This document shows positions 1,199 to 13,145 of a DNA stretch of 64,000 bases, in pieces; the stretch's first letter is position 1, and each line of letters starts with the position of its first letter. The stretch is taken from NCBI GenBank assembly GCA_945874695.1, contig CAMCHP010000004.1, positions 1 to 64,000 on the forward strand, read 5' to 3'. The translations under genes and the position numbers were made by a program. The notes beneath the pieces were generated by a model that saw only the letters and a list, made by a program, of their open reading frames with translations, ran no database searches and was not told the DNA's origin. The DNA is from Chryseobacterium gleum (GTDB lineage Bacteria; Bacteroidota; Bacteroidia; Flavobacteriales_D; Sanyastnellaceae).

Positions 1199-1805
1199 TT
1201 TACTCCTATGCCTCGCACTGTTTAGTGCCACGCACGCTTGGAGTCAGGCGAAGTTTCGCGCGGGTTTAACTGCAGGCCTAGCAACCACCCAAGTGCATGG
1301 CGACGCCATTAGTGGCTTCAATAAGCTCGGTTTTTCAGGTGGGCTTTTGGTCGACATTTCAGGCAACGGCCGCTTCAGCGGTGGTTTCGAAATGATATAC
1401 CTTCAGAAAGGAAGCCGTAAACCTGCAAATCCAGACAACGGTGACTTCACTACATGGGGTTATACGTTCCACTACATCGATGTACCTGTATTGCTGACCT
1501 ACCACTTTGACGCTTTTTACGTGCAGGCGGGCATTTACGGCGGTTTTTTAATTGCGGGCGAGTCGGTTTTTGATGGCAGCCCTTTTGAAATCATCAATCC
1601 GGAGATGCGACGCTACGACCTCGGTGTAGCTGCCGGAGTTGGCATTGACATCACTGAACATTGGGCCGCAAATTTGCGGTATTCGAACAGTGTTGTGCCG
1701 ATACGCAAAGCACCAGATGGCGCGAGCATTACCCGCTTCTATGATGCCGGAATGCTCAACATTGTTGCGCAACTTGCTCTGGTGTATCGTTTAGGGGCAG
1801 AATGA
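1176..1805 (+). CDS. PorT-like outer membrane beta-barrel protein
   Basis: A 209-residue protein with a clear Sec signal peptide (cleavage likely near residue 24, after THAWSQA). Short amphipathic strands follow, and phrases such as FRAGLTAGLATTQ, GFSGGLLVDI and GGFEMIYLQKGSRK are characteristic of the outer-membrane beta-barrel (PorT or OMP_b-brl_2) family of Bacteroidota. The predicted location is the outer membrane. The ATG at 1176 overlaps the end of the Omp28 gene by 23 nt, which implies translational coupling within the operon. The precise function cannot be read from the sequence. PorT proper takes part in type IX secretion, but many paralogs do not, so I do not assign that role. Confidence 0.75.
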   Translation: MLLKVSRNLLLCLALFSATHAWSQAKFRAGLTAGLATTQVHGDAISGFNKLGFSGGLLVDISGNGRFSGGFEMIYLQKGSRKPANPDNGDFTTWGYTFHYIDVPVLLTYHFDAFYVQAGIYGGFLIAGESVFDGSPFEIINPEMRRYDLGVAAGVGIDITEHWAANLRYSNSVVPIRKAPDGASITRFYDAGMLNIVAQLALVYRLGAE

Positions 1806-2036
1806 CAATATAGTTTATTGAAATGCCCTTGCCGTATCGGGATTGAGGCAACGGTTTCCAAAGTTGATTTCTTCAGCGCTCACGCCTCGGTTGGTGGCTC
1901 GAATCATAAGCTGTTACAACACAATCTCTCTTCGACCGCGTGGGCTCACCTTCTTGCGTCAAATCAGAAGTAGTGGCCAATAGTTCTCACCGCCTAGTCT
2001 TCCGAAATCGAAAGATTGGCAATACCTTTCGGTCGC

Positions 2037-3281
2037 GTGAAGAAGAAACTTGGCATTGTGACCACATGGTTCGAACGCGGGGCAACTCACGTTTCGCTGG
2101 CCTACATTGCAGCTCTGCAAGAGGCCTTTGACATACGCGTCTATGCACGTGGCGGCGACGCCTTTCCTATGCATGATCCCAAATGGAACATGCCGTGGGT
2201 GCATTGGGGTGAATTTATACCCGGAGCCCCATCAACAACCATTGATCGCCGTGATTTCATGCGGTGGCTGAAGCGGGAACAAATTGATATCTTAATCTTT
2301 AACGAGCAACAAAGCTGGGACATCTTGCTTTATTTGCGCAATACCGACCTAAATTGGCCCGCTGGGCGTCCGCTCATGGGGGCCTACATCGACTACTATA
2401 CCGCGCAAACAGTGCCCTTTTTCGCTTTGTACGACTTTGTACTGTGCAACACCCAGCGTCATCTGAGTGTGTTTACCAACCACAAACAAGCGCTGTACAT
2501 CCCTTGGGGAGTCAACGTGAAGGCATTTCCTGTCGCAGAACCTGTACAAGACCGCCCTGTTACATTCTTTCATTCACTCGGTTACAACCCTGAGCGCAAA
2601 GGCACCGATTTGGTCGTTGAGGCTTTCAATCGCATGAAAAACACCGAGGCCTTGCTCATTTTACATGCACAGCGTCCGTTGCACGATTTTCCTGCGCTTG
2701 AAAGGCTCATTGGCGCCAATCCGCGAATTAAGTGGATTGACCGCGAAGTGGCGCCTCCAGGCTTGTACACCTTGGGCGACGTCTATGTTTACCCCTCACG
2801 CCTCGACGGCATCGGCTTGTCGCTACCAGAGGCCTTGGCGAGTGGTTTACCTGCCATTGTGACCGACGAAGCACCGATGAATGCGTTCATCGAAGAAGAT
2901 GTAAACGGCTGGTGCATACCGGTCGCTTCACGCGCACTGCGCCAAGATGGGTATTATTGGCCCATGGCGGTTGTTGATGTTTTCGCCCTAGCCGGGCGGA
3001 TGGATACGCTCGCTGCCAACCCCGCGGTACTCAAAAAATACCAAGAGCAAGCACGCAAACATGCCGAACAACACCTCAATTGGATGGCGAACAGCGCCGA
3101 ACTTGCCACAGCGTTGGGAAAATTGACGCATCAAACCTGTCCGGCAGACATTCTAGAAGCATGCGCCCAGCATGAGCAAAATGTTCAGCAAAATGTAAAA
3201 TTGAAACACCGCATACACCGCTTGCTGATCGCACTGGGTGCGCGCAAAGTCAAGCGCTTGTTGGCTGGCAGAAGATCGTAA
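2037..3281 (+). CDS. glycosyltransferase, GT4-like (group 1)
   Basis: About 414 residues from the GTG at 2037. A TTG at 2016 in the same frame is possible, but the GTG fits better because a TACCTTTC promoter-like element lies at 2022-2029. The N-terminal half starts with KLGIVTTWFERGATHVS, the usual opening of a GT-B fold. The C-terminal half carries YPSRLDGIGLSLPEALASG, the ExxxxxxxE-type nucleotide-sugar binding motif of GT4 enzymes, then GLPAIVTDEAP. It probably transfers a sugar from an activated donor onto a cell-surface glycan on the cytoplasmic side of the membrane. Donor and acceptor are unknown. It heads a run of three glycosyltransferases on the same strand. A hairpin-repeat copy lies in frame at 2982-3002 and encodes part of FALAGRMD. 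Confidence 0.85.
   Translation: MKKKLGIVTTWFERGATHVSLAYIAALQEAFDIRVYARGGDAFPMHDPKWNMPWVHWGEFIPGAPSTTIDRRDFMRWLKREQIDILIFNEQQSWDILLYLRNTDLNWPAGRPLMGAYIDYYTAQTVPFFALYDFVLCNTQRHLSVFTNHKQALYIPWGVNVKAFPVAEPVQDRPVTFFHSLGYNPERKGTDLVVEAFNRMKNTEALLILHAQRPLHDFPALERLIGANPRIKWIDREVAPPGLYTLGDVYVYPSRLDGIGLSLPEALASGLPAIVTDEAPMNAFIEEDVNGWCIPVASRALRQDGYYWPMAVVDVFALAGRMDTLAANPAVLKKYQEQARKHAEQHLNWMANSAELATALGKLTHQTCPADILEACAQHEQNVQQNVKLKHRIHRLLIALGARKVKRLLAGRRS
2982..3002 (-). repeat. CATC-hairpin repeat copy 1
   Basis: Leader CATC, stem CGCCC/GGGCG, loop GGCTA, then AA. Antisense within the GT4-like gene. The stem sequence is unique to this copy and still pairs perfectly. Confidence 0.75.
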
Positions 3282-3370
3282 CGACTGTCATCAGTTGGGT
3301 GCAAGGTTACAATATCACAGGGTCAGCCAATAAATGATGAACGTGCGTCATTTCTTTGCACCTTAGCAGG

Positions 3371-4450
3371 GTGAAAAACCGCGTTATTTGGATCATTTCA
3401 CCCGAGGCTTGGGGTGAACATTTACTCTCCAAGCATCAGTACGCCATTGCCTTGACCCGTCGCGGCAATGAAGTCGTATTTATTGAGCCCGACCAGGGTC
3501 TTCGCACGGTGCGTGAAGTGCCCGGCATTTCTGAATTGCAATTGCTCGACTGGAAGCCCGTTCAGGGATTGCGACGCTTTCCAAAGCCCGTGGCGCGCTA
3601 CATTCAGCGGCGTGAGTTACTTGCCATTGCAAGAAAAACCCAAACCCGTCCTGACCTCATTTGGTCGTTTGACAACTCCCGTTTTTTTGATCTAGATGCC
3701 AATCCGTTTGGGGCGCGCACGATTCACCATGTAGTTGACCTTAATCAAAACTTTGAGTTCTCCCGTGCGGCAAGCTCTGCTCAATTGTGTTTAGGCACAA
3801 CCCGGTACATCACCGCAAAATTGAAGGCCTTTAATTCGAACAGCCATTTAATTGGTCACGGTTGTGATCCGGTTGCGTGTGCCGATTGGAAGCCCCAAAA
3901 CCGTTTAAAAAAACAAGTGGTGTACAGTGGGAACCTGTTAATTCCTTTGCTTGATCACGAGCTATTGCGCACTGCGATTGAAGCGCATCCTGAGGTTGAT
4001 TTTCATTTCTTGGGGGCCTATACACGAAGCAACGTAAGCCTGCAACCGCATGCAGAAGCGCTCGCCTTCATTGCATATTTGCAAGGTCGAGCGAACGTTC
4101 GCTTGCATGGCGCTTTGCGCGGGGCAGCATACCACAAGGCCTTGGAATTGGCTGATTTGTTCATTGTTGCCTATCGGCAAGATGCGCATGAGCAAATCGC
4201 AAATCCGCACAAGATCCCTGAGCTTTTATCAACCGGACGCGCCATCGTAAGCGTCGTGCTCGACTTCTACCGCGATCTTGATCTCCTTTACATGGCACAT
4301 GATGGAGCGACTTGGCAAAACCTACTGAACGCAAGTTTGAACGACTTGGACCAGGTTAACAGCATCGCCTTGCAAACCAAGCGCAAGAACTGGGCCTTTC
4401 AGCACAGCTATGATCAGCAAATTAACCTCATCGCTGAATGGCTCTCGTGA
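3371..4450 (+). CDS. glycosyltransferase, GT4-like
   Basis: About 359 residues from the GTG at 3371; the open frame extends upstream to a TTG at 3356, but homologs usually open near KNRVIWIISPEAWGEHL. The protein has a GT-B layout: an N-terminal region including RRGNEVVFIEP, a central segment (LIGHGCDPVACADW) and a C-terminal sugar-nucleotide part with ANPHKIPELLSTGRAIVS, a conserved signature of group 1 transferases. It likely acts in surface polysaccharide assembly, with unknown substrate. It overlaps the following GT2 gene by 13 nt and shares its strand, so the two are translationally coupled. No signal peptide or membrane segment is evident, which fits a cytosolic or membrane-associated enzyme. 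Confidence 0.82.
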   Translation: MKNRVIWIISPEAWGEHLLSKHQYAIALTRRGNEVVFIEPDQGLRTVREVPGISELQLLDWKPVQGLRRFPKPVARYIQRRELLAIARKTQTRPDLIWSFDNSRFFDLDANPFGARTIHHVVDLNQNFEFSRAASSAQLCLGTTRYITAKLKAFNSNSHLIGHGCDPVACADWKPQNRLKKQVVYSGNLLIPLLDHELLRTAIEAHPEVDFHFLGAYTRSNVSLQPHAEALAFIAYLQGRANVRLHGALRGAAYHKALELADLFIVAYRQDAHEQIANPHKIPELLSTGRAIVSVVLDFYRDLDLLYMAHDGATWQNLLNASLNDLDQVNSIALQTKRKNWAFQHSYDQQINLIAEWLS

Positions 4451-5247
4451 ACACCCCATTGGTAAGTATCATTTTGCCGGTTCACAATGGCGCCTTGACC
4501 CTTGATGATGCCATACAAAGCGTGTTGCAACAAGATTACCCACATTGGGAGTTGATCATCATCGACAATGCAAGCACCGACGCCAGCGTAGCGCGTATTG
4601 AATGCTACACCGATGTGCGCATTAGCCTTATATCTGAGCCGGCGCTTGGGGTAAGTCGGGCACGTAATCGCGGTTTAGATTTGGCCCGCGGGGCATTCAT
4701 TTGCTTCCTAGACGCTGATGATCGCCTGCCGCAGGCGAGTTTACGGGTGCGCCTTGAGTACGCAGAAATGCATGCGCACCTTGCATTGATTGACGGATCA
4801 GTAGTGACTTACGCTGCCGATTTCACGAACCCAATTGCCCATTGGACACCCACATTTACAGGAAACTACACCAATGAGTTGGCGTGCCAAACGGGATCTT
4901 GCTTTCGTGGCGTTACGGCGATGGTGCGCAGCACAGCCATTGGCGATGTTCGTTTCCCGATCAACCAAAGTCATGCTGAGGACCTGAGTTTTTACTTGCA
5001 ACTCGCGCTTCGTGGCGCAAAATATGGGTTTGTCGAAGATGTGGTGTACCACATCCGTCAGCGCCCCGACTCTGCCATGTCAAACCTTGAAGGCCTCGCC
5101 GCGGGCTACCGTGCACTTCTGCCTTTGATTGAGACCCTGCATCCGGCCGTTCAGGCCGAATACAAAAAAAGAGTGCGAAAAATTGTATTTCGAAGTGCGC
5201 TAAAGGCTGGCCACATTGCCCTTGCGCTGCGCTCATTGAGCTGGTGA
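4438..5247 (+). CDS. glycosyltransferase family 2
   Basis: A 269-residue enzyme with the GT-A fold signature of family 2. Residues 8-50 contain SIILPVHNGALTLDDAIQSV and LIIIDNASTD, and the metal-binding DxD-type motif is in CFLDADDRLP. It is an inverting transferase by family knowledge, and probably extends the same glycan as the two preceding genes. It starts 13 nt inside the upstream glycosyltransferase gene (ATG 4438, alternative GTG 4447). Its 3' end overlaps the convergent DinB gene by 15 nt. Near the C-terminus a hairpin repeat at 5140-5160 encodes HPAVQAE in frame. A separate 17-nt perfect palindrome lies at 4722-4738 next to the DxD codons. Confidence 0.9.
   Translation: MALVNTPLVSIILPVHNGALTLDDAIQSVLQQDYPHWELIIIDNASTDASVARIECYTDVRISLISEPALGVSRARNRGLDLARGAFICFLDADDRLPQASLRVRLEYAEMHAHLALIDGSVVTYAADFTNPIAHWTPTFTGNYTNELACQTGSCFRGVTAMVRSTAIGDVRFPINQSHAEDLSFYLQLALRGAKYGFVEDVVYHIRQRPDSAMSNLEGLAAGYRALLPLIETLHPAVQAEYKKRVRKIVFRSALKAGHIALALRSLSW
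5140..5160 (+). repeat. CATC-hairpin repeat copy 2
   Basis: Leader CATC, stem CGGCC/GGCCG, loop GTTCA, then AA. Sense orientation inside the GT2 gene, read as HPAVQAE. Confidence 0.8.
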
Positions 5248-5778
5248 ACAAGCCCGTTGCGCTTGCTGCATGTGGCGCTCATTGTGGTAAATGACAACAC
5301 GGAGCGTATCGCCCAACTTCAATTTCAACCATGTACTAATGCTAATTGCGGTTCTGGTTCGGTTGAGATCGACCTTATTAGCCGCTTCAAGCAAATGCAG
5401 GAAGTCGTTTTGTTGGTTGATGAAACGCGATAAAGTTGAGGCTGTGAGGAGGCTTCCGGCTGGATTCATACTTGCAAAGGTCTTCATGCGGTTGAGCTTC
5501 GCTTTGGGCAACATGCTCATCGCGAAGTAGTTGCCAAGTAAGCCAGGTCTGAATCGGTGTTGCTGCGCTTCAGGTGCAGTTTTCAGCCGTTTTTGTATCT
5601 CGGGAATGTAAAAGTCGCCGTAGCGGTTGAGATGCTCAAGGCACTCGAGCGCACTCCAGGCGTTTGGGGCAGGCCTTGCATTGAGTGCTTCCATGGGAAG
5701 GTGTTTCCATTCTTCAACCAATCGCATGTGGTGGTTGACGTAATTGGTCAATTCCTTGATGATGGCCTCGTTTTGCAT
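5233..5778 (-). CDS. DinB family protein (DinB_2-like)
   Basis: A 181-residue, all-alpha protein. The four-helix-bundle pattern and the phrases NAWSALECLEHLNRYGDFY and VVIYHNERHMQQAQR match the DinB / YfiT-like superfamily. These proteins commonly bind a divalent metal through three His residues; here His51 (in ECLEHLNRY) and the paired His near the C-terminus (YHNERHMQQ) are candidates. Members are putative thiol-dependent transferases or damage-induced proteins of mostly unknown substrate. The gene lies downstream of the Crp/Fnr regulator on the same strand, with a 56 nt gap that contains a perfect FNR-type palindrome. Its 3' end overlaps the convergent GT2 gene by 15 nt. Confidence 0.8.
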   Translation of the reverse strand: MQNEAIIKELTNYVNHHMRLVEEWKHLPMEALNARPAPNAWSALECLEHLNRYGDFYIPEIQKRLKTAPEAQQHRFRPGLLGNYFAMSMLPKAKLNRMKTFASMNPAGSLLTASTLSRFINQQNDFLHLLEAANKVDLNRTRTAISISTWLKLKLGDTLRVVIYHNERHMQQAQRACSPAQ

Positions 5779-5824
5779 TGCTCAAAAGTTTCGACAAAGG
5801 TGGTTCGAAACGCACAAGCTACAC

Positions 5825-5838
5825 TTGATTGAAATCAA
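5825..5838. promoter_or_regulatory. candidate Crp/Fnr-family operator
   Basis: The 14-nt sequence reads TTGAT-TGAA-ATCAA, an exact match to the FNR-type consensus TTGAT(N4)ATCAA. It begins 46 nt upstream of the DinB start codon and overlaps the stop codon of the Crp/Fnr-family gene itself. The position suits local control of DinB by that regulator. This is inference: AT-rich palindromes also arise by chance. Confidence 0.4.
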
Positions 5839-6392
5839 GAATTCTTAATGCGCGACAGGGTTTCAGGAGTCATGCGTAAATAATCGGCGATGTACTTGTG
5901 CGGCACCTCTTGAAAAAGTTGTGGGCTGCGCTCAAGCACCCGTCGGTAACGCTCGGCAGGAGCACCAGTAAGCACATCACGTTCGCGTTCCATTTGCTGC
6001 AGCACGAGCCGCTCGAGCAGTTCACTGTACGCTTGATAGCGTTCAGCGCGCACATGGGCATCGCTTTGCTGAAGCACCTGTTGAAAATCGGCCCGAGATA
6101 TTCGGCGAACCGTTGTTTTTCGAAGCGCCTGGACAAAAAAGAGCGTGGGTTGATCGGTTAGAAACGCATCTAAAAGCGCAAACAAATTTCCCGAATAGGC
6201 GAAACGTGTAGTTTGTTCATGGCCGTCTTCATTGCTGAAAATTCGAAAACACCCTTCCTCGACCCAATACACGTTCTTCTCGAAAGCCCCGGGCGTGCAA
6301 AGGTAAGCATGGCGCTTAAACACGATGGGCGGCGCTGCTTCAAATTCGAGCCAAAGCGCCTCAAGGAGGTTTTGATAGGGCATTTCAGACAT
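5835..6392 (-). CDS. Crp/Fnr family transcriptional regulator
   Basis: A 185-residue regulator with an N-terminal cyclic-nucleotide-binding-like barrel (roughly residues 20-110, with VYWVEEGCFRIF and GHEQTTRFAYSGNLFALLDAF). A long dimerisation helix follows (YSELLERLVLQQMERERD), then a short winged helix ending in HKYIADYLRMTPETLSRIKNS, which is the recognition-helix region. No Cys cluster for an Fe-S centre is visible, so it belongs with the Crp-like Bacteroidota regulators of unknown ligand rather than true FNR. It is divergent from the wecB gene and followed by DinB, the likely regulated neighbour. Its length is typical for the group. Confidence 0.88.
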   Translation of the reverse strand: MSEMPYQNLLEALWLEFEAAPPIVFKRHAYLCTPGAFEKNVYWVEEGCFRIFSNEDGHEQTTRFAYSGNLFALLDAFLTDQPTLFFVQALRKTTVRRISRADFQQVLQQSDAHVRAERYQAYSELLERLVLQQMERERDVLTGAPAERYRRVLERSPQLFQEVPHKYIADYLRMTPETLSRIKNS

Positions 6393-6509: not shown

Positions 6510-7619
6510 ATGAAGATCGATGTTGTGATTGGTACACGGCCTGAAGCCATAAAGCTCGCACCCGTGGTGCGCGCCTTAAACGACTACGGCGGATTTACGG
6601 TGCGCACCATTTTCACGGGGCAGCATACCTCGCTGATGGCTGGCATTGAAACGCTTTTTGATTTACGGCCAGACCTGACGCTCGACGCGATGCCCGCTAA
6701 CGCTTCGTTAAACGAACTCAATGCCCGGTTGCTTGCACAGTTGGGTTTGAGTTTTTCGGCCTGTCGGCCGGATGTGGTTGTGGTTCAAGGCGACACTTCA
6801 TCCGCATTTTACGGGGCTTTGGCCGCTTACAACGAACAAATTCCTGTAGCACACGTGGAAGCGGGTTTGCGCACGGGCGACCGCAATGCCCCATGGCCTG
6901 AAGAGGTGCACCGCAGCGCCTTGGCGCGAATCGCTGAACTTCACTTTGCCCCCACACAGAAGGCTTTTAACCAACTGAAAAAAGAAGGATGTACCAACGT
7001 GCACTTAACTGGAAATACAGTTGTTGACGCCTTGCAGTGGATACGCGCTGCGCATCCAAGCGCGACAAAAGCCAATACAATGCGCAAGCAAATCTTGGTC
7101 ACCGTGCATCGCCGAGAGGCTTTTGATCGCCAACTTGAGCAAATCTTTCGAGCCATTCGATATTTGGTCGATCAGCACGATGAGATCGATGTGTTGTTTC
7201 CCGTGCATTTGAATCCCGTGGTGCAAGGCATGGCCAAGCGCTATTTGGCGGATCATCCGCGTATAAATCTTTGCGCACCCCTGAACTACCTTGAAATGGT
7301 GCACGCCATGGAAAGCAGTTATTTACTCATGACCGACAGCGGCGGCTTGCAAGAGGAGGCGCCATCGTATCAATTGCCCACTTTGGTACTTCGCGAAAAA
7401 ACAGAGCGCACTGAAGCCCTCGACGCGGGCGTTGCGTACTTGTGCGGCACTGACTTTGATGCGATAGTCAACGCAGCGCATCGACTGATCACTGATCAAG
7501 CGGCCCATGCAGCGATGCGCAAATCAGGCAACCCATTCGGCGATGGTTTGGCCGCTATCCGCATCACCGAAATTCTTGTTCACCACTTTGCGCCCAATCC
7601 TGAAATGTCATCGTTGTGA
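6510..7619 (+). CDS. wecB: UDP-N-acetylglucosamine 2-epimerase (non-hydrolysing)
   Basis: A 369-residue enzyme that interconverts UDP-GlcNAc and UDP-ManNAc for cell-surface polysaccharide. It opens with MKIDVVIGTRPEAIKLAPVV, the family hallmark. The active-site segments HVEAGLRTGDRNAPWPEE and TDSGGLQEEAPSYQLPTLVLR, with the REKTER signature, are intact. Length is normal. The stop overlaps the GTG of the next gene by 4 nt (GTGA), so it is translationally coupled to the double glycosyltransferase, which may use the product. No UDP-ManNAc dehydrogenase is adjacent. A TATCTTGC element close to the ATG resembles the Bacteroidota -7 box. A hairpin repeat lies in frame at 6755-6774. Confidence 0.93.
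   Translation: MKIDVVIGTRPEAIKLAPVVRALNDYGGFTVRTIFTGQHTSLMAGIETLFDLRPDLTLDAMPANASLNELNARLLAQLGLSFSACRPDVVVVQGDTSSAFYGALAAYNEQIPVAHVEAGLRTGDRNAPWPEEVHRSALARIAELHFAPTQKAFNQLKKEGCTNVHLTGNTVVDALQWIRAAHPSATKANTMRKQILVTVHRREAFDRQLEQIFRAIRYLVDQHDEIDVLFPVHLNPVVQGMAKRYLADHPRINLCAPLNYLEMVHAMESSYLLMTDSGGLQEEAPSYQLPTLVLREKTERTEALDAGVAYLCGTDFDAIVNAAHRLITDQAAHAAMRKSGNPFGDGLAAIRITEILVHHFAPNPEMSSL
6755..6774 (-). repeat. CATC-hairpin repeat copy 3
   Basis: Leader CATC, stem CGGCC/GGCCG, loop GACA, then AA. Antisense inside wecB, read by the gene as SACRPDV. Confidence 0.78.
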
Positions 7620-10063
7620 ACGTTTTAGTAATCACCTATTGGAGTTTCAAGGAGCCATTGATTCAAGCGGCAACCCTTCCCTATTTGCGCATCATGGCGC
7701 AGTTACTCGGGCCGGATGCGCGCATCCATTTGGTGACATTAGAGAAACAGCATTTGGCCATTGCCCGAGACGAGGAGACGGCGATCGGAGCAGCCCTAGA
7801 TCGCGATGGCATTACCTTGCTCACTCGGCGCTATCACAAGTTCGGCTTGCGCGCCATGTTTGGCTGGTTGAGTAACTTACTATGGATAAAAAACTATTGC
7901 AAACGGGAGCACATCGCGGTAATTCACGCATTTGGAAGTCCGGCTGCGACAACAGCCGATGTCATTTCTCGGTTTACGCGGCTGCCCTATGTTATTGACA
8001 GCTACGAGCCGCATGCCGAGTCGATGGTTGAGAATGGCTCATGGAAATCGTGGTCGATTGCCTACCGAACCCTGCGTTGGTTTGAGCGTGCGCAAAGCCG
8101 CAGAGCGCGCGCAGTGCTGGCTACAACAGAAGGTATGCGAGCGTATGCGGCAAAAACCTATGGTCACATTCCCGGTGTTTTCATTGCTCGTCCTGCCTGT
8201 GTTGATGTTACGCAATTCAACTGTGCCGAAGATTATGCACTTACACGCGCTGAATTAGGCTTTGACGCCGATGCAATCGTGTGTGTATACGCTGGAAAGA
8301 TTGGGGGAATTTACTTGAAGCAAGAGGTTTTTGACTTTTTTGCCGCATGTGTAAGCCATTGGGGGAATCGCTTTCGTGTGATTATGCTGAGCGATTTAAG
8401 TGCGCGTGAAATGGGCGTTTTAGCTGCCCGTGCAGGACTTTCGACCGACGTCATTCACCTTGCCTTTGTGCCGCATCACACCGTGCCTGCCTATTTGAGA
8501 TTGGCTGATTTCGCCATTAATCCAGTGAAACCTGTTCCTACAAAGCGTTACTGCACGTCGATTAAAGATGGCGAGTATTGGGCCATGGGCTTACCGGTTG
8601 TAATCCCTGAAGGCATTTCTGACGATTCAGACCTGATCCGTTCAGAGCAAATAGGCGTGGTATTGCAGGGTCTTCATCCTGCAGCGTACAAAGCGGCTGT
8701 TGAAGCCATGGATGTGTTGTTGGGAGCATCCCGCCGCGAGGCGGAAAAAACAAGAATCAGAGATTTGGCTGTGACCCATCGTGGCATGGCCATTGCGGAA
8801 CACGCCTACCGGCTACTTTACGGAGCAGGGGGTGTTTTGCGCAAGCCCGAAAAGCGTTTTTTGGTTCTTATTTACAACAGCTACCGCGACCCGCTGTTTC
8901 GCAACCTCGTGTTCGAATATATGCTTCGCCAAAGTGCGTTGAATTTGAACTACCACTTTGACCTCATCACTTTCGAGCAAAAAAAATACGCTTTAACGCG
9001 CAGTGAACGCAAGCGGGAGCGCATTCGATTGAGCGCATACCGTGTGCAATGGCATGCGCTAACTTATCACTCGGGGGCATTTATGCTGGTCAAAAAAGCT
9101 TTTGACTTCGTGGCCGCATTGTACAATGTGGTTTCGATTCGTGCCCGGTTTAAAACCGATATGGTGATTGCTTTTGCCAACACATCAGCTGCGATTTCGT
9201 TGTTGCTATCGCGCTGGATTGGCGCCAAGTTGATGGTTTATTCTTATGAACCCCACAGTGAATTTCTAGCTGAATTCGGCGTTTGGAAGCGCAGCGGGTG
9301 GCGTTATCGCTTTTTGAATCATTTGGAAGAACGTGTGGGTCGTGAGGCAGACTACTTGCTGACTGGCACACAACACATGGTCGATCGCATGCACGGCACC
9401 GCCACTGGGCAAGTGCTTCGTGCCCCATCCAGCGTCGATGAGTCGATTTTCAAACCCAACCCTCAGGCGCGCGAGGCAGGCCGCAAAGCTTGGCAACTTG
9501 AAAACCGGCGTGTATTGATTTACGCCGGTAAATTCGGCGGCATTTACTACGACCGTGAGATTGCTGAATTCTGCACACGTTTGCTCAAGCTCGATCAAAG
9601 CTGGTTTTTTATTTTCTTGACCCCTTCTCCAGCGGCGGAAGTGAGCGCCTTGCTCGACCAAGCTGGATTGCATGTGAACGATTACCGCTTAACCGAAGCT
9701 AAAAGTGCTGATGAAGTGGTTTACTTTTTATCGATGGCGGATATGGGGTTAACAGCAATTCCGCCCTACCCGAATCAAAAATTTCGATCTCCGGTGAAGG
9801 TTGGGGAGTATTTAATGTGTGGTCTCCCATACATCACATGCCGAGGCGTATCTGAAGACGATTTATGGGCTGAGGCGCATCACGTAGGCATTGTGGTTGA
9901 CGAAATCTCAGCTGAAACTGCAGTGCAGGTGCAGGCTGAGGCTGCAGCGTTTTTTCTTGAAAACCCAGAAACATTGCGTGCACGCTGCCGGGCAACGGGC
10001 ATCGCTTACCGCGGTAGAAAACAAGTCGACGCGCTGTTTGACACGATTTTAGCTGAGGCTTAG
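7616..10063 (+). CDS. tandem double glycosyltransferase (two GT4-like modules in one chain)
   Basis: The 815-residue protein holds two homologous glycosyltransferase modules. Module 1 spans about residues 1-400 and module 2 about 415-815. Matching landmarks recur in the same order: IDSYEPHAESMVENGSWK and YSYEPHSEFLAEFGVWK; VCVYAGKIGGIYLKQE and VLIYAGKFGGIYYDRE; KDGEYWAMGLPVV and KVGEYLMCGLPYI. Each half looks complete, with an N-terminal half-domain, the YAGK(I/F)GGIY strand at the start of the donor domain, and the GEYxxxGLP signature. Overlap with wecB (GTGA) suggests the donor may derive from UDP-ManNAc, but that is inference. It could add two sugars in succession, or one module could be regulatory. 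The 3' end overlaps the convergent lipoprotein gene by 4 nt. Confidence 0.85.
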   Translation: MNVLVITYWSFKEPLIQAATLPYLRIMAQLLGPDARIHLVTLEKQHLAIARDEETAIGAALDRDGITLLTRRYHKFGLRAMFGWLSNLLWIKNYCKREHIAVIHAFGSPAATTADVISRFTRLPYVIDSYEPHAESMVENGSWKSWSIAYRTLRWFERAQSRRARAVLATTEGMRAYAAKTYGHIPGVFIARPACVDVTQFNCAEDYALTRAELGFDADAIVCVYAGKIGGIYLKQEVFDFFAACVSHWGNRFRVIMLSDLSAREMGVLAARAGLSTDVIHLAFVPHHTVPAYLRLADFAINPVKPVPTKRYCTSIKDGEYWAMGLPVVIPEGISDDSDLIRSEQIGVVLQGLHPAAYKAAVEAMDVLLGASRREAEKTRIRDLAVTHRGMAIAEHAYRLLYGAGGVLRKPEKRFLVLIYNSYRDPLFRNLVFEYMLRQSALNLNYHFDLITFEQKKYALTRSERKRERIRLSAYRVQWHALTYHSGAFMLVKKAFDFVAALYNVVSIRARFKTDMVIAFANTSAAISLLLSRWIGAKLMVYSYEPHSEFLAEFGVWKRSGWRYRFLNHLEERVGREADYLLTGTQHMVDRMHGTATGQVLRAPSSVDESIFKPNPQAREAGRKAWQLENRRVLIYAGKFGGIYYDREIAEFCTRLLKLDQSWFFIFLTPSPAAEVSALLDQAGLHVNDYRLTEAKSADEVVYFLSMADMGLTAIPPYPNQKFRSPVKVGEYLMCGLPYITCRGVSEDDLWAEAHHVGIVVDEISAETAVQVQAEAAAFFLENPETLRARCRATGIAYRGRKQVDALFDTILAEA
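8727..8746 (+). repeat. CATC-hairpin repeat copy 4
   Basis: Leader CATC, stem CCGCC/GGCGG, loop GCGA, then AA. Sense orientation in the double glycosyltransferase gene, read as ASRREAE near the end of module 1. Confidence 0.7.
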
Positions 10064-10563
10064 CGGTTCATGTTTCGCAAATCAACTTTTTCGGTAAACG
10101 TGACGGGTACTTTGCGTTTCACAAACATTGCTTTGCCGTGGAGCTCCCCGGTTGCCTCGAATGTAGCTTCGCGGGTGATAATCAAATTGAGTAGGGTTTC
10201 AAGAAATCCACCACCCCCTTGGGAAGGATCGAAAGAACCATCTAACGTGAAAGTGTATTCACCGGTTGACTTTTTAGGTATGACGTAGCGTTCATCGAAA
10301 CGAATTACCCCGGCAGGTTTACCATTGAGGGTAACATTCATCGTTCCTTGCTCTGCGACGAGTTTATACCAATTCGGATTTTGAATAGCTACTGTCACGG
10401 TGGCTGTAACGCCTGATTGATCAAAACGCGTAATCACGACTTCTTTCACTTCATTCATCGTTACCTCTTTGTAAAACGTACAAGAGGTCGCGAAACTAAG
10501 CACCACACAAACAATGAAATACCTGAAAAAGACTAGCGTGCGCATGAGGTAATTTTTGAGCAA
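10060..10563 (-). CDS. LEA type 2 (LEA14-like) lipoprotein
   Basis: A 167-residue protein. The N-terminus MRTLVFFRYFIVCVVLSFATSC (second Met at residue 7) is a signal ending in a lipobox-like ATSC, so it is probably lipid-anchored. The following single domain contains TATVTVAIQNPNWYKLVAEQGTM, the conserved pattern of the LEA_2 / WHy beta-sandwich family (alternating strands, the NPN motif). A hydrophobic binding or stress-protection role is attributed to the family, but bacterial function is unresolved. The downstream end overlaps the double glycosyltransferase by 4 nt in convergent orientation. The gene stands alone, with a 150 nt gap to the next gene upstream. Confidence 0.72.
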   Translation of the reverse strand: MLKNYLMRTLVFFRYFIVCVVLSFATSCTFYKEVTMNEVKEVVITRFDQSGVTATVTVAIQNPNWYKLVAEQGTMNVTLNGKPAGVIRFDERYVIPKKSTGEYTFTLDGSFDPSQGGGGFLETLLNLIITREATFEATGELHGKAMFVKRKVPVTFTEKVDLRNMNR

Positions 10564-11768: not shown

Positions 11769-13145
11769 TTACTCGGCGAAGTAGCGGTAGAAAAGCGGAA
11801 TCGTTTCAATGCCCTTGAAGTAATTAAACACGCCGTAGTGTTCATTGGGTGAGTGAATGGCGTCGCTATCTAAACCGAAGCCGAAAAGCACAGTTTTTAG
11901 TCCGAGAATTTTCTCAAAAGAAGCGACAATCGGAATAGATCCCCCGCTGCGCACAGGCACAGGACGCTTGCCGTATGTTTCTTCCATGGCGCGCGCTGCT
12001 GCCAAATAGGCCTTGCTATCGATGGGCGTCACGGCCGCCTCACCCCCATGGTGCGGCATAACCTTCACTGAACAACTCGCTGGGGCGATTTTTTCAAAAT
12101 GGCGCTGGAAGAGCTGTGTGATGGTCTTTGAATCTTGATTTGGAACCAAGCGCATGCTGATTTTGGCGTAAGCCTTGGATGCAATAACGGTTTTAGCACC
12201 TTCACCGATGTACCCACCCCAAATGCCGTTGACATCGAGTGTTGGACGAATGCTCTTACGTTCAGGAACCGTGTACCCTTGTTCACCTTCTACCGCCCCG
12301 ATACCGATGCTCTTTTTGAAGGCATCTTCGTTGAAAGGCGCTTTGGCCATTTCATTGCGTTCTTCGATAGAGAGCTCTACCACGTCTTCATAGAAGCCTG
12401 GAATAGCAATGCGTTGCTGGTCGTCTTTGAGCGAAGCGATCATTTCACAGAGCACGTTGATGGGGTTCGGCACACTACCGCCGTATAAACCAGAGTGCAG
12501 GTCGCGGTTCGGGCCTGTTACCTCCACCTCGAGGTAGCTCAAGCCCCGTAAGCCGGTTGTGATCGACGGAACGTCGTTGGCAATGATACCCGTATCCGAG
12601 ACCAGCACTACATCAGCCTTGAGCAGTTCGGTATGCTTCGCTAAGAAACCGTCGAGATTGGAAGATCCGACTTCTTCTTCGCCTTCGATAATGAACTTCA
12701 CATTGCATGGCAATGTATTGGTGTTCACCATGGTTTCAAAAGCCTTCACGTGCATATAAAACTGGCCCTTGTCATCGCATGCACCGCGCGCAAAAACCGC
12801 ACCTTCGGGGTGAATATCGGTTGCTTTGATCACCGGTTCAAAGGCAGGTGAGTGCCACAATTCGAGCGGATCAGCCGGTTGCACATCGTAGTGGCCGTAA
12901 ACCAACACGGTTGGCTTTGACGGATCGATGATTTTCTCTGCATAAACAATTGGAAAACCGGGTGTGGGCATCACTTCAGCGCGATCGGCACCTGCATGCA
13001 GGAGGCTTTCTTTTGTTGCCTCAGCCATGCGCATCACGTCGCTCTGGTAAGCTGGATCAGCACTCACAGATGGAATGCGCAGCAACTCGAGTAACTCATT
13101 AAGAAAGCGCTCGCGATTGGCTTGGATATACTCTTTTTGGGTCAT
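11769..13145 (-). CDS. M20 family dipeptidase
   Basis: A 458-residue metallopeptidase. The M20 signature runs in order: VYGHYDVQPAD (metal His85 and the accessory Asp87), FARGACDDKGQ (bridging Asp), IEGEEEVGSSN (catalytic Glu and metal Glu), VLVSDTG (metal Asp), and AIHSPNEHYG near the C-terminus (metal His). A lid/dimerisation domain spans about residues 200-360, with HSGLYGGSVPNPI containing the conserved His. By family it cleaves dipeptides or similar peptide bonds in the cytoplasm using two zinc ions; no signal peptide is present. It is a single gene between convergent neighbours, with the YceI gene upstream on the same strand but separated by a terminator. Confidence 0.9.
   Translation of the reverse strand: MTQKEYIQANRERFLNELLELLRIPSVSADPAYQSDVMRMAEATKESLLHAGADRAEVMPTPGFPIVYAEKIIDPSKPTVLVYGHYDVQPADPLELWHSPAFEPVIKATDIHPEGAVFARGACDDKGQFYMHVKAFETMVNTNTLPCNVKFIIEGEEEVGSSNLDGFLAKHTELLKADVVLVSDTGIIANDVPSITTGLRGLSYLEVEVTGPNRDLHSGLYGGSVPNPINVLCEMIASLKDDQQRIAIPGFYEDVVELSIEERNEMAKAPFNEDAFKKSIGIGAVEGEQGYTVPERKSIRPTLDVNGIWGGYIGEGAKTVIASKAYAKISMRLVPNQDSKTITQLFQRHFEKIAPASCSVKVMPHHGGEAAVTPIDSKAYLAAARAMEETYGKRPVPVRSGGSIPIVASFEKILGLKTVLFGFGLDSDAIHSPNEHYGVFNYFKGIETIPLFYRYFAE

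Follow-up and report, generated by a model that had tools for sequence, protein, structure and literature searches.

Introduction

Glycosyltransferases with two modules in a single chain are already known from other bacteria, among them WbdA of Escherichia coli O9 and Klebsiella pneumoniae O3 and O5, and KpsC, a dual transferase of β-3-deoxy-D-manno-oct-2-ulosonic acid (Kdo). Excerpts of one account describe two or three mannosyltransferase modules per WbdA polypeptide, one for each linkage type, and give WbdA, WbbM and WbbB as precedents for the multi-module layout (PMC11231755), while the two modules of KpsC are described, again in excerpt, as adding alternating linkages (PMC10148158). Here we describe a gene at 7616..10063 on the + strand of a 64,000-nucleotide stretch, hereafter the window (positions 1 to 64,000 of contig CAMCHP010000004.1, assembly GCA_945874695.1, labelled Chryseobacterium gleum and placed in the family Sanyastnellaceae), which likewise encodes two glycosyltransferase modules, A and B, predicted to be complete, in one chain. 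The product is probably a bifunctional GT4-like glycosyltransferase in which two fused paralogues act in sequence on one surface glycan.

The likeness to WbdA lies in the presence of several transferase modules in one polypeptide and is one of layout, not of sequence. It differs in its surroundings, as no WbdD-like terminator or ATP-binding cassette (ABC) transporter was found in a Pfam scan of ten window proteins; the scan did not extend to the neighbours in relatives. KpsC also has two modules in one chain, but its donor is the cytidine monophosphate conjugate CMP-Kdo, to which nothing in the fusion locus points, and we take KpsC and the fusion enzyme to belong to different glycosyltransferase families. 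No paper on this fusion was recognised among the literature matches listed.

Two modules of GT-B fold

The 815-residue protein starts at a GTG codon, with the reading-frame boundaries given in a preliminary description of the window, and divides into module A (residues 2-403, 7619..8824), a linker (residues 404-413, 8825..8854) and module B (residues 414-813, 8855..10054). The linker is 10 residues long in all 11 fusions of the family. Module boundaries were set by a profile hidden Markov model (HMM) made from relatives of the protein, and the HMM envelopes, the predicted fold and the matches to BshA (A) and MshA (B) place both modules among GT-B, GT4-like enzymes, in subfamilies that we call A and B. 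An assembly artefact could be rejected because 10 other genomes of the same family encode full-length homologues with both modules, 46-61% identical to it. The modules are homologous to each other (25% identity, E 2e-31 over 351 aligned columns), and the landmarks that the preliminary description had read in the same order from both halves are indeed found there, SYEPH at residues 129-133 and 543-547, YAGK.GGIY at 225-233 and 636-644, and GEY...GLP at 319-327 and 730-738. A GT-B-type profile lies above its curated Pfam cut-off: PF13579 reaches 60.5 bits on the whole protein (cut-off 29.7) over two stretches, PF13692 reaches 33 bits (cut-off 27) over a single stretch in module A only, and PF13439 and PF00534 match below cut-off.

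An AlphaFold model, built from an alignment of 14 two-module proteins after one mixing single A or B genes with fusions had been set aside, is confident throughout (predicted local distance difference test, pLDDT, 91.4; predicted template modelling score, pTM, 0.85; 0 residues below 50). Each half shows the two-domain GT-B fold over the whole module. The module A side (residues 1-411) matches BshA (6n1x, Z 32.4), PglA (Z 31.0) and WaaG (2iv7, Z 29.0); the module B side, within residues 412-815, matches MshA (3c4q, Z 34.6, residues 413-815), sucrose-phosphate synthase (Z 34.5), HepE (Z 30.4) and WaaG (8b5q, Z 30.0). The best rows for WaaG, BshA, MshA, HepE and PglA thus lie at Z 29-35 over nearly the whole length of a half, but at 8-16% identity, and these enzymes have one module per chain.

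A further comparison concerns the EX7E motif, the meaning of which in GT4 enzymes we take from excerpts of PMC3898925. In these, both glutamates are present in MshA, WaaG and BaGT4, whereas the fusion modules keep only the second, so that neither carries a complete EX7E motif. The retained residues, placed by alignment to solved enzymes, would be Glu320 in module A (8573..8575) and Glu731 in module B (9806..9808). The same source gives Glu333 as the second EX7E glutamate of WsaF, a rhamnosyltransferase placed in GT4. WsaF, which we set beside the fusion by description only, shares this residue with it but is a single-module enzyme using deoxythymidine diphosphate (dTDP)-rhamnose, and it was not among the 50 structural matches listed for the fusion model.

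Conservation extends well beyond this glutamate. The EPH motif of module A (E131-P132-H133, 8006..8014) and that of module B (E545-P546-H547, 9248..9256) are identical in all 12 A-B proteins, in which both modules also keep E157/E571, G227-K228/G638-K639, K317/K728, E320/E731 and R389/R799; further residues conserved among A genes recur in B as well, namely Y233/Y644, G319-E320-Y321/G730-E731-Y732 and D337/D748. Both modules are under purifying selection. The ratio of nonsynonymous to synonymous substitution rates (dN/dS) is 0.079 for module A and 0.109 for module B between genomes G045 and G044, and 0.062 and 0.045 for the two modules between G046 and G048; for the locus pairs L106/L107 and L024/L028 the NG86 estimate of dS is saturated or undefined.

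With completeness of the cleft judged from fold match and residue conservation, each module is predicted to be a complete GT-B enzyme. The preliminary description had proposed two complete GT4-like modules, to be abandoned if one half had an incomplete cleft or the halves were structurally unrelated; the homology, the whole-enzyme structural matches of both predicted folds and the family-conserved residues in either module all bear the proposal out.

That only one module is catalytic, the other being a regulatory or otherwise non-catalytic copy that binds the acceptor or acts as a scaffold, seems unlikely to us. The low identity between the halves would allow for it, and the diverged D-type partner found beside an A gene at two loci (L109 and L110) has lost both EPH and the lysine of the GK turn, so such changes do occur. 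Against this stand the conserved residues kept in both modules of the 12 A-B proteins, on which account a single dead module was judged less likely, and the similar purifying selection on the two. Furthermore, module B probably works alone, since a single B gene occurs in two genomes, G030 and G082, with no A-type match at E 1e-30, both being drafts (110 and 260 contigs, G082 78% complete).

When the full sequence was compared with solved structures by phmmer, most matches were to hepatitis B capsid chains and covered roughly residues 480-567, the resemblance of residues 506-566 (window 9131-9313) reaching a best E of 1.3e-4. This similarity is probably due to chance, because the fold there is that of a GT-B N-domain.

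Origin and occurrence of the fusion

The preliminary description regarded the gene as a tandem duplication fused in one frame, which the phylogeny does not bear out. In a tree of 105 modules (from 124 domain hits, after 13 short or weak ones had been dropped and identical modules collapsed), A and B fall on two separate sides, each of which includes stand-alone genes, and more careful trees agree. The halves are therefore not each other's closest relatives, and tandem duplication was rejected, because A and B belong to different clades that both include stand-alone genes. The gene arose instead by fusion of two anciently diverged paralogues. Locus L081 is missing from the set, as the simple gene caller picked an overlapping open reading frame (ORF), and superseded short loci were skipped.

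A second A-B fusion, in G403, has a linker of 6 residues rather than 10. Whether it goes back to the same event was addressed with constrained trees. In the quick 105-module tree a single clade was not rejected for the 12 first modules (p 0.737) or the 12 second modules (p 0.536), but this search was imperfect, since the constrained trees scored above the free one. The careful trees gave different answers for the two sides: with 24 rows they rejected a single clade of second modules (p 0.00098), whereas a single clade of first modules was not rejected with 34 rows (p 0.135). The trees thus allow either a common or a separate origin for the G403 fusion and that of the family.

The full two-module protein, always in the order A then B, is found in 11 of 114 genomes of the family, our own included. 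A stands alone in three others (G024, G025 and G026) and B in two (G082 and G030); the remainder of the 114 have no match at E 1e-30. Stand-alone homologues thus exist for either module, as the preliminary description had suggested looking for. Its statement that the arrangement is unusual for the group holds outside the family, where most matches are single-module, but not inside it, where two-module proteins outnumber single modules (11 of the 16 genomes matching at E 1e-30 or better). In the order sample 27 of 399 genomes match at that threshold, the same 11 and 16 with a single module. The class sample has 80 matching genomes of 395; six encode two modules in one chain (three family members plus G403, G430 and G707), G530 and G588 carry A beside D, and the matches are otherwise single-module. 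The phylum sample has four of 395, two of them with the family's fusion. These samples overlap, and single-module genomes of the order and the class were only partly fetched. A contig search gave 44 named loci, of which seven contain a two-module gene, one a single B and 36 A genes; three of these 36 have A pairs and three are fragments. A single B gene is also present in Marinoscillum furvescens (L054). One A-type gene (L042:7983-9224) lies on a contig labelled Acidobacteriota, all other loci being from Bacteroidota, and represents either a transfer or a binning error.

Pairing partners and the Cys313 position

Modules A and B can be told apart by many subfamily-specific residues (W9/N421, H104/I518, D128/Y542, K310/Q721 and W322/L733), and a further difference recurs in other pairings. 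Directly after the place of the first EX7E glutamate, and seven residues before E320, module A carries Cys313 (8552..8554), a cysteine in 12/12 first modules of A-B proteins and in 51/54 single A genes, the other three having glycine. Module B has Arg724 at the same position (9785..9787), an arginine in 12/12 second modules and in five of six single B genes, the sixth having cysteine.

Other combinations of modules follow a similar rule. Two A-A fusions (G707 and G430; loci L111 and L112), whose modules take separate positions in the A clade, have glycine in the first module and cysteine in the second (2/2). Three pairs of A genes, adjacent at L038 and L051 and separated by two genes at L050, have cysteine in the first gene and glycine in the second (3/3). 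The A-A fusions and the A gene pairs arose separately from the A-B fusion. Where A stands beside the D gene (L109:7337-8590 and L110:6366-7595), cysteine is paired with serine (2/2); D perhaps has another specificity, or is inactive. In all 19 two-module sets examined one module therefore keeps the cysteine while its partner is altered (12 Arg, 5 Gly, 2 Ser), which suggests that the two modules catalyse two different reactions.

This pattern bears on a further explanation, in which both modules perform the same reaction, as a processive or dosage-doubled enzyme adding two like residues. The shared fold and conserved residues are what such an enzyme would have, and A-A fusions and A gene pairs do exist. 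We nevertheless consider it rather improbable, given the constant difference at the Cys313 position and the many subfamily-specific differences between A and B. The exchange of cysteine for arginine or glycine beside the EX7E region provides a testable mark of a changed reaction.

Two longer chains were also noted. In G519 a GT2 domain is fused with a distant A-side module in one 672-residue protein (L116:6980-8998). At L113 and L114, 450-540 residues precede the module; neither these nor the rest of those ORFs have a Pfam match, and the long N-terminal stretches are probably wrong starts. Single A and B genes, A gene pairs and the A-A, A-B and GT2-A fusions form a natural series for studying how fusion builds up glycan enzymes that carry out several steps.

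Proposed activity of the fusion enzyme

We tentatively propose that the two modules act in turn, at the inner membrane, on a single lipid-linked glycan as it grows. Module A would carry out a reaction common to the whole A subfamily, while module B would add a different sugar or form a different linkage. The three transferases encoded upstream, GT4a, GTb and GT2, could make neighbouring linkages of the same short surface glycan. The fusion would hold the modules at a 1:1 ratio and might allow the product of one to be passed to the other.

Several observations weigh against this proposal. No NCBIfam model reaches its cut-off on the 815-residue protein, the best being TIGR04063 with 72 of the 442 bits needed. 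The first EX7E glutamate is replaced in both modules, by Tyr312 in A and Phe723 in B, so the canonical GT4 enzymes are a limited guide to function here. In relatives A or B stands alone, so one module can suffice there. The single A genes of G024-26 have glycine at the cysteine site (the 3/54 above), and the altered residue is therefore not strictly tied to pairing. Finally, the 19 sets are not independent, representing about four to five origins, and they leave out G626, where two A matches fall on separate contigs.

The wecB slot and the choice of sugar

The fusion gene is preceded by wecB, encoding a non-hydrolysing uridine diphosphate N-acetylglucosamine (UDP-GlcNAc) 2-epimerase (6510..7619, + strand; TIGR00236, 392.9 bits, cut-off 210.15). 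The enzyme is of full length and closely resembles epimerases of solved structure (E 8.6e-91). The coupling overlap reported in the preliminary description is present, the stop of wecB and the GTG start of the fusion lying within a GTGA at 7616..7619. A four-nucleotide NTGA overlap precedes the A-B gene in all 11 loci of the family, whichever gene lies upstream (taking the final stop for L023 and a start at 8028 for L024). According to excerpts of PMC6728339, 13 of 14 tested gene pairs with such overlaps showed coupled translation.

The gene in this slot is far less constant than the overlap. It is a full-length wecB in five of the 11 loci (the window and L104-L107) and absent in two (L024 and L028). 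In another (L023:6880-8004, genome G043) the frame is open up to the overlap except for one in-frame stop, which may be genuine or due to misassembly. In the other three loci it has shrunk to an ORF of 178-212 residues (L022:7372-8010, L025:1066-1605 and L026:7468-8004). The fusion protein is intact in all 11, including the six in which wecB is absent, interrupted or shortened. The suggestion of the preliminary description that sugars derived from N-acetylmannosamine (ManNAc) are added is therefore weak, and an assignment of ManNAc from the coupling to wecB was rejected on the same grounds. A recent in-frame tandem duplication adding such sugars from the coupled wecB would fit the full-length wecB and GTGA overlap of the window, but we regard it as very improbable, since the halves lie in old, separate clades and the fusion persists where wecB is missing, interrupted or non-catalytic. 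More generally, a coupled neighbour may be a poor guide to the sugar transferred. The genome also has two further PF02350 genes, which again weaken the suggestion; with these and three PF03721 matches above cut-off, ManNAc-type sugars may still be made in it, with no tie to the fusion enzyme.

The shortened ORFs keep N-terminal segments and the last helix of WecB, and their reading frame still runs to the NTGA overlap; they lack the HVEAGLRT, PEE, HRRE and TDSGGLQEEAP stretches and are predicted to be non-catalytic. The two that were scanned (L022 and L026) have no Pfam match. They occur in G044/G045 and in G047 (L022), and among the 114 family genomes the form is confined to these three, besides a weak match with internal stops in G103. 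Because G047 belongs to the same genus as G046 and G048, both with a full wecB, it is simplest to suppose that the gene shrank on two separate occasions. On the other hand, the two short forms are slightly more alike, mainly in the last helix, than the L026 form is to the window WecB; this counts against separate events, and the short forms may share an origin by transfer.

The short ORF is itself under selection, more loosely than modules A and B or GT2, as shown for one pair: between G045 and G044 its dN/dS is 0.223 (95% interval 0.142-0.337, 178 codons), compared with 0.148 for GT2 (codons with N or the like left out). An AlphaFold model of the short protein (pLDDT 75.7, pTM 0.76) gave no Foldseek match at E 0.001. 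WecB-like sugar 2-epimerases make up 19 of the 50 matches listed, including 8ahe and CapG, which were counted by their match to the window WecB; this result is weak because the alignment behind the model held rows of full WecB. One possibility, which we hold to be doubtful, is that the product of the slot is needed for some reason other than epimerisation, in which case a retired enzyme would serve either to couple translation or, without catalysis of its own, as a partner of the transferase.

Gene neighbourhood

Upstream of the fusion, on the + strand, the same cassette contains GT4a, a GT4-like glycosyltransferase (2016..3281), GTb (3356..4450), which is glycosyltransferase-like with only weak family matches under cut-off, and the GT2 glycosyltransferase (4438..5247); GT4a and GT2 were assigned from the Pfam scan and locus comparison. 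The order GTb, GT2, A-B is kept in 10 of the 11 family loci, with wecB or its remnant in between in most, and a homologue of GT4a precedes in six. G047 lacks all three upstream transferases at its locus. Downstream, on the - strand, lie a LEA_2-like gene (10060..10563; 24.3 bits, just below the 25.4 cut-off) and a peptidase-like gene (11769..13145), which we take to be M20-like. In 10 of the 11 loci both follow the A-B gene on the opposite strand, the LEA_2-like gene as its right-hand neighbour.

This frame also surrounds the single-module genes. GT2 is followed in G024 by A alone and then by the same LEA_2-like and M20-like genes, and in G030 by B alone and then the M20-like gene; in G082 B alone follows GT2 and the left flank is conserved. 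A large minus-strand gene of several relatives (about 1050 residues) is not at the corresponding place in the window (1805-2016). Between GT2 and wecB the window has minus-strand genes of DinB-like and Crp-like type (5233-6392), an arrangement seen in it alone among the 11 loci.

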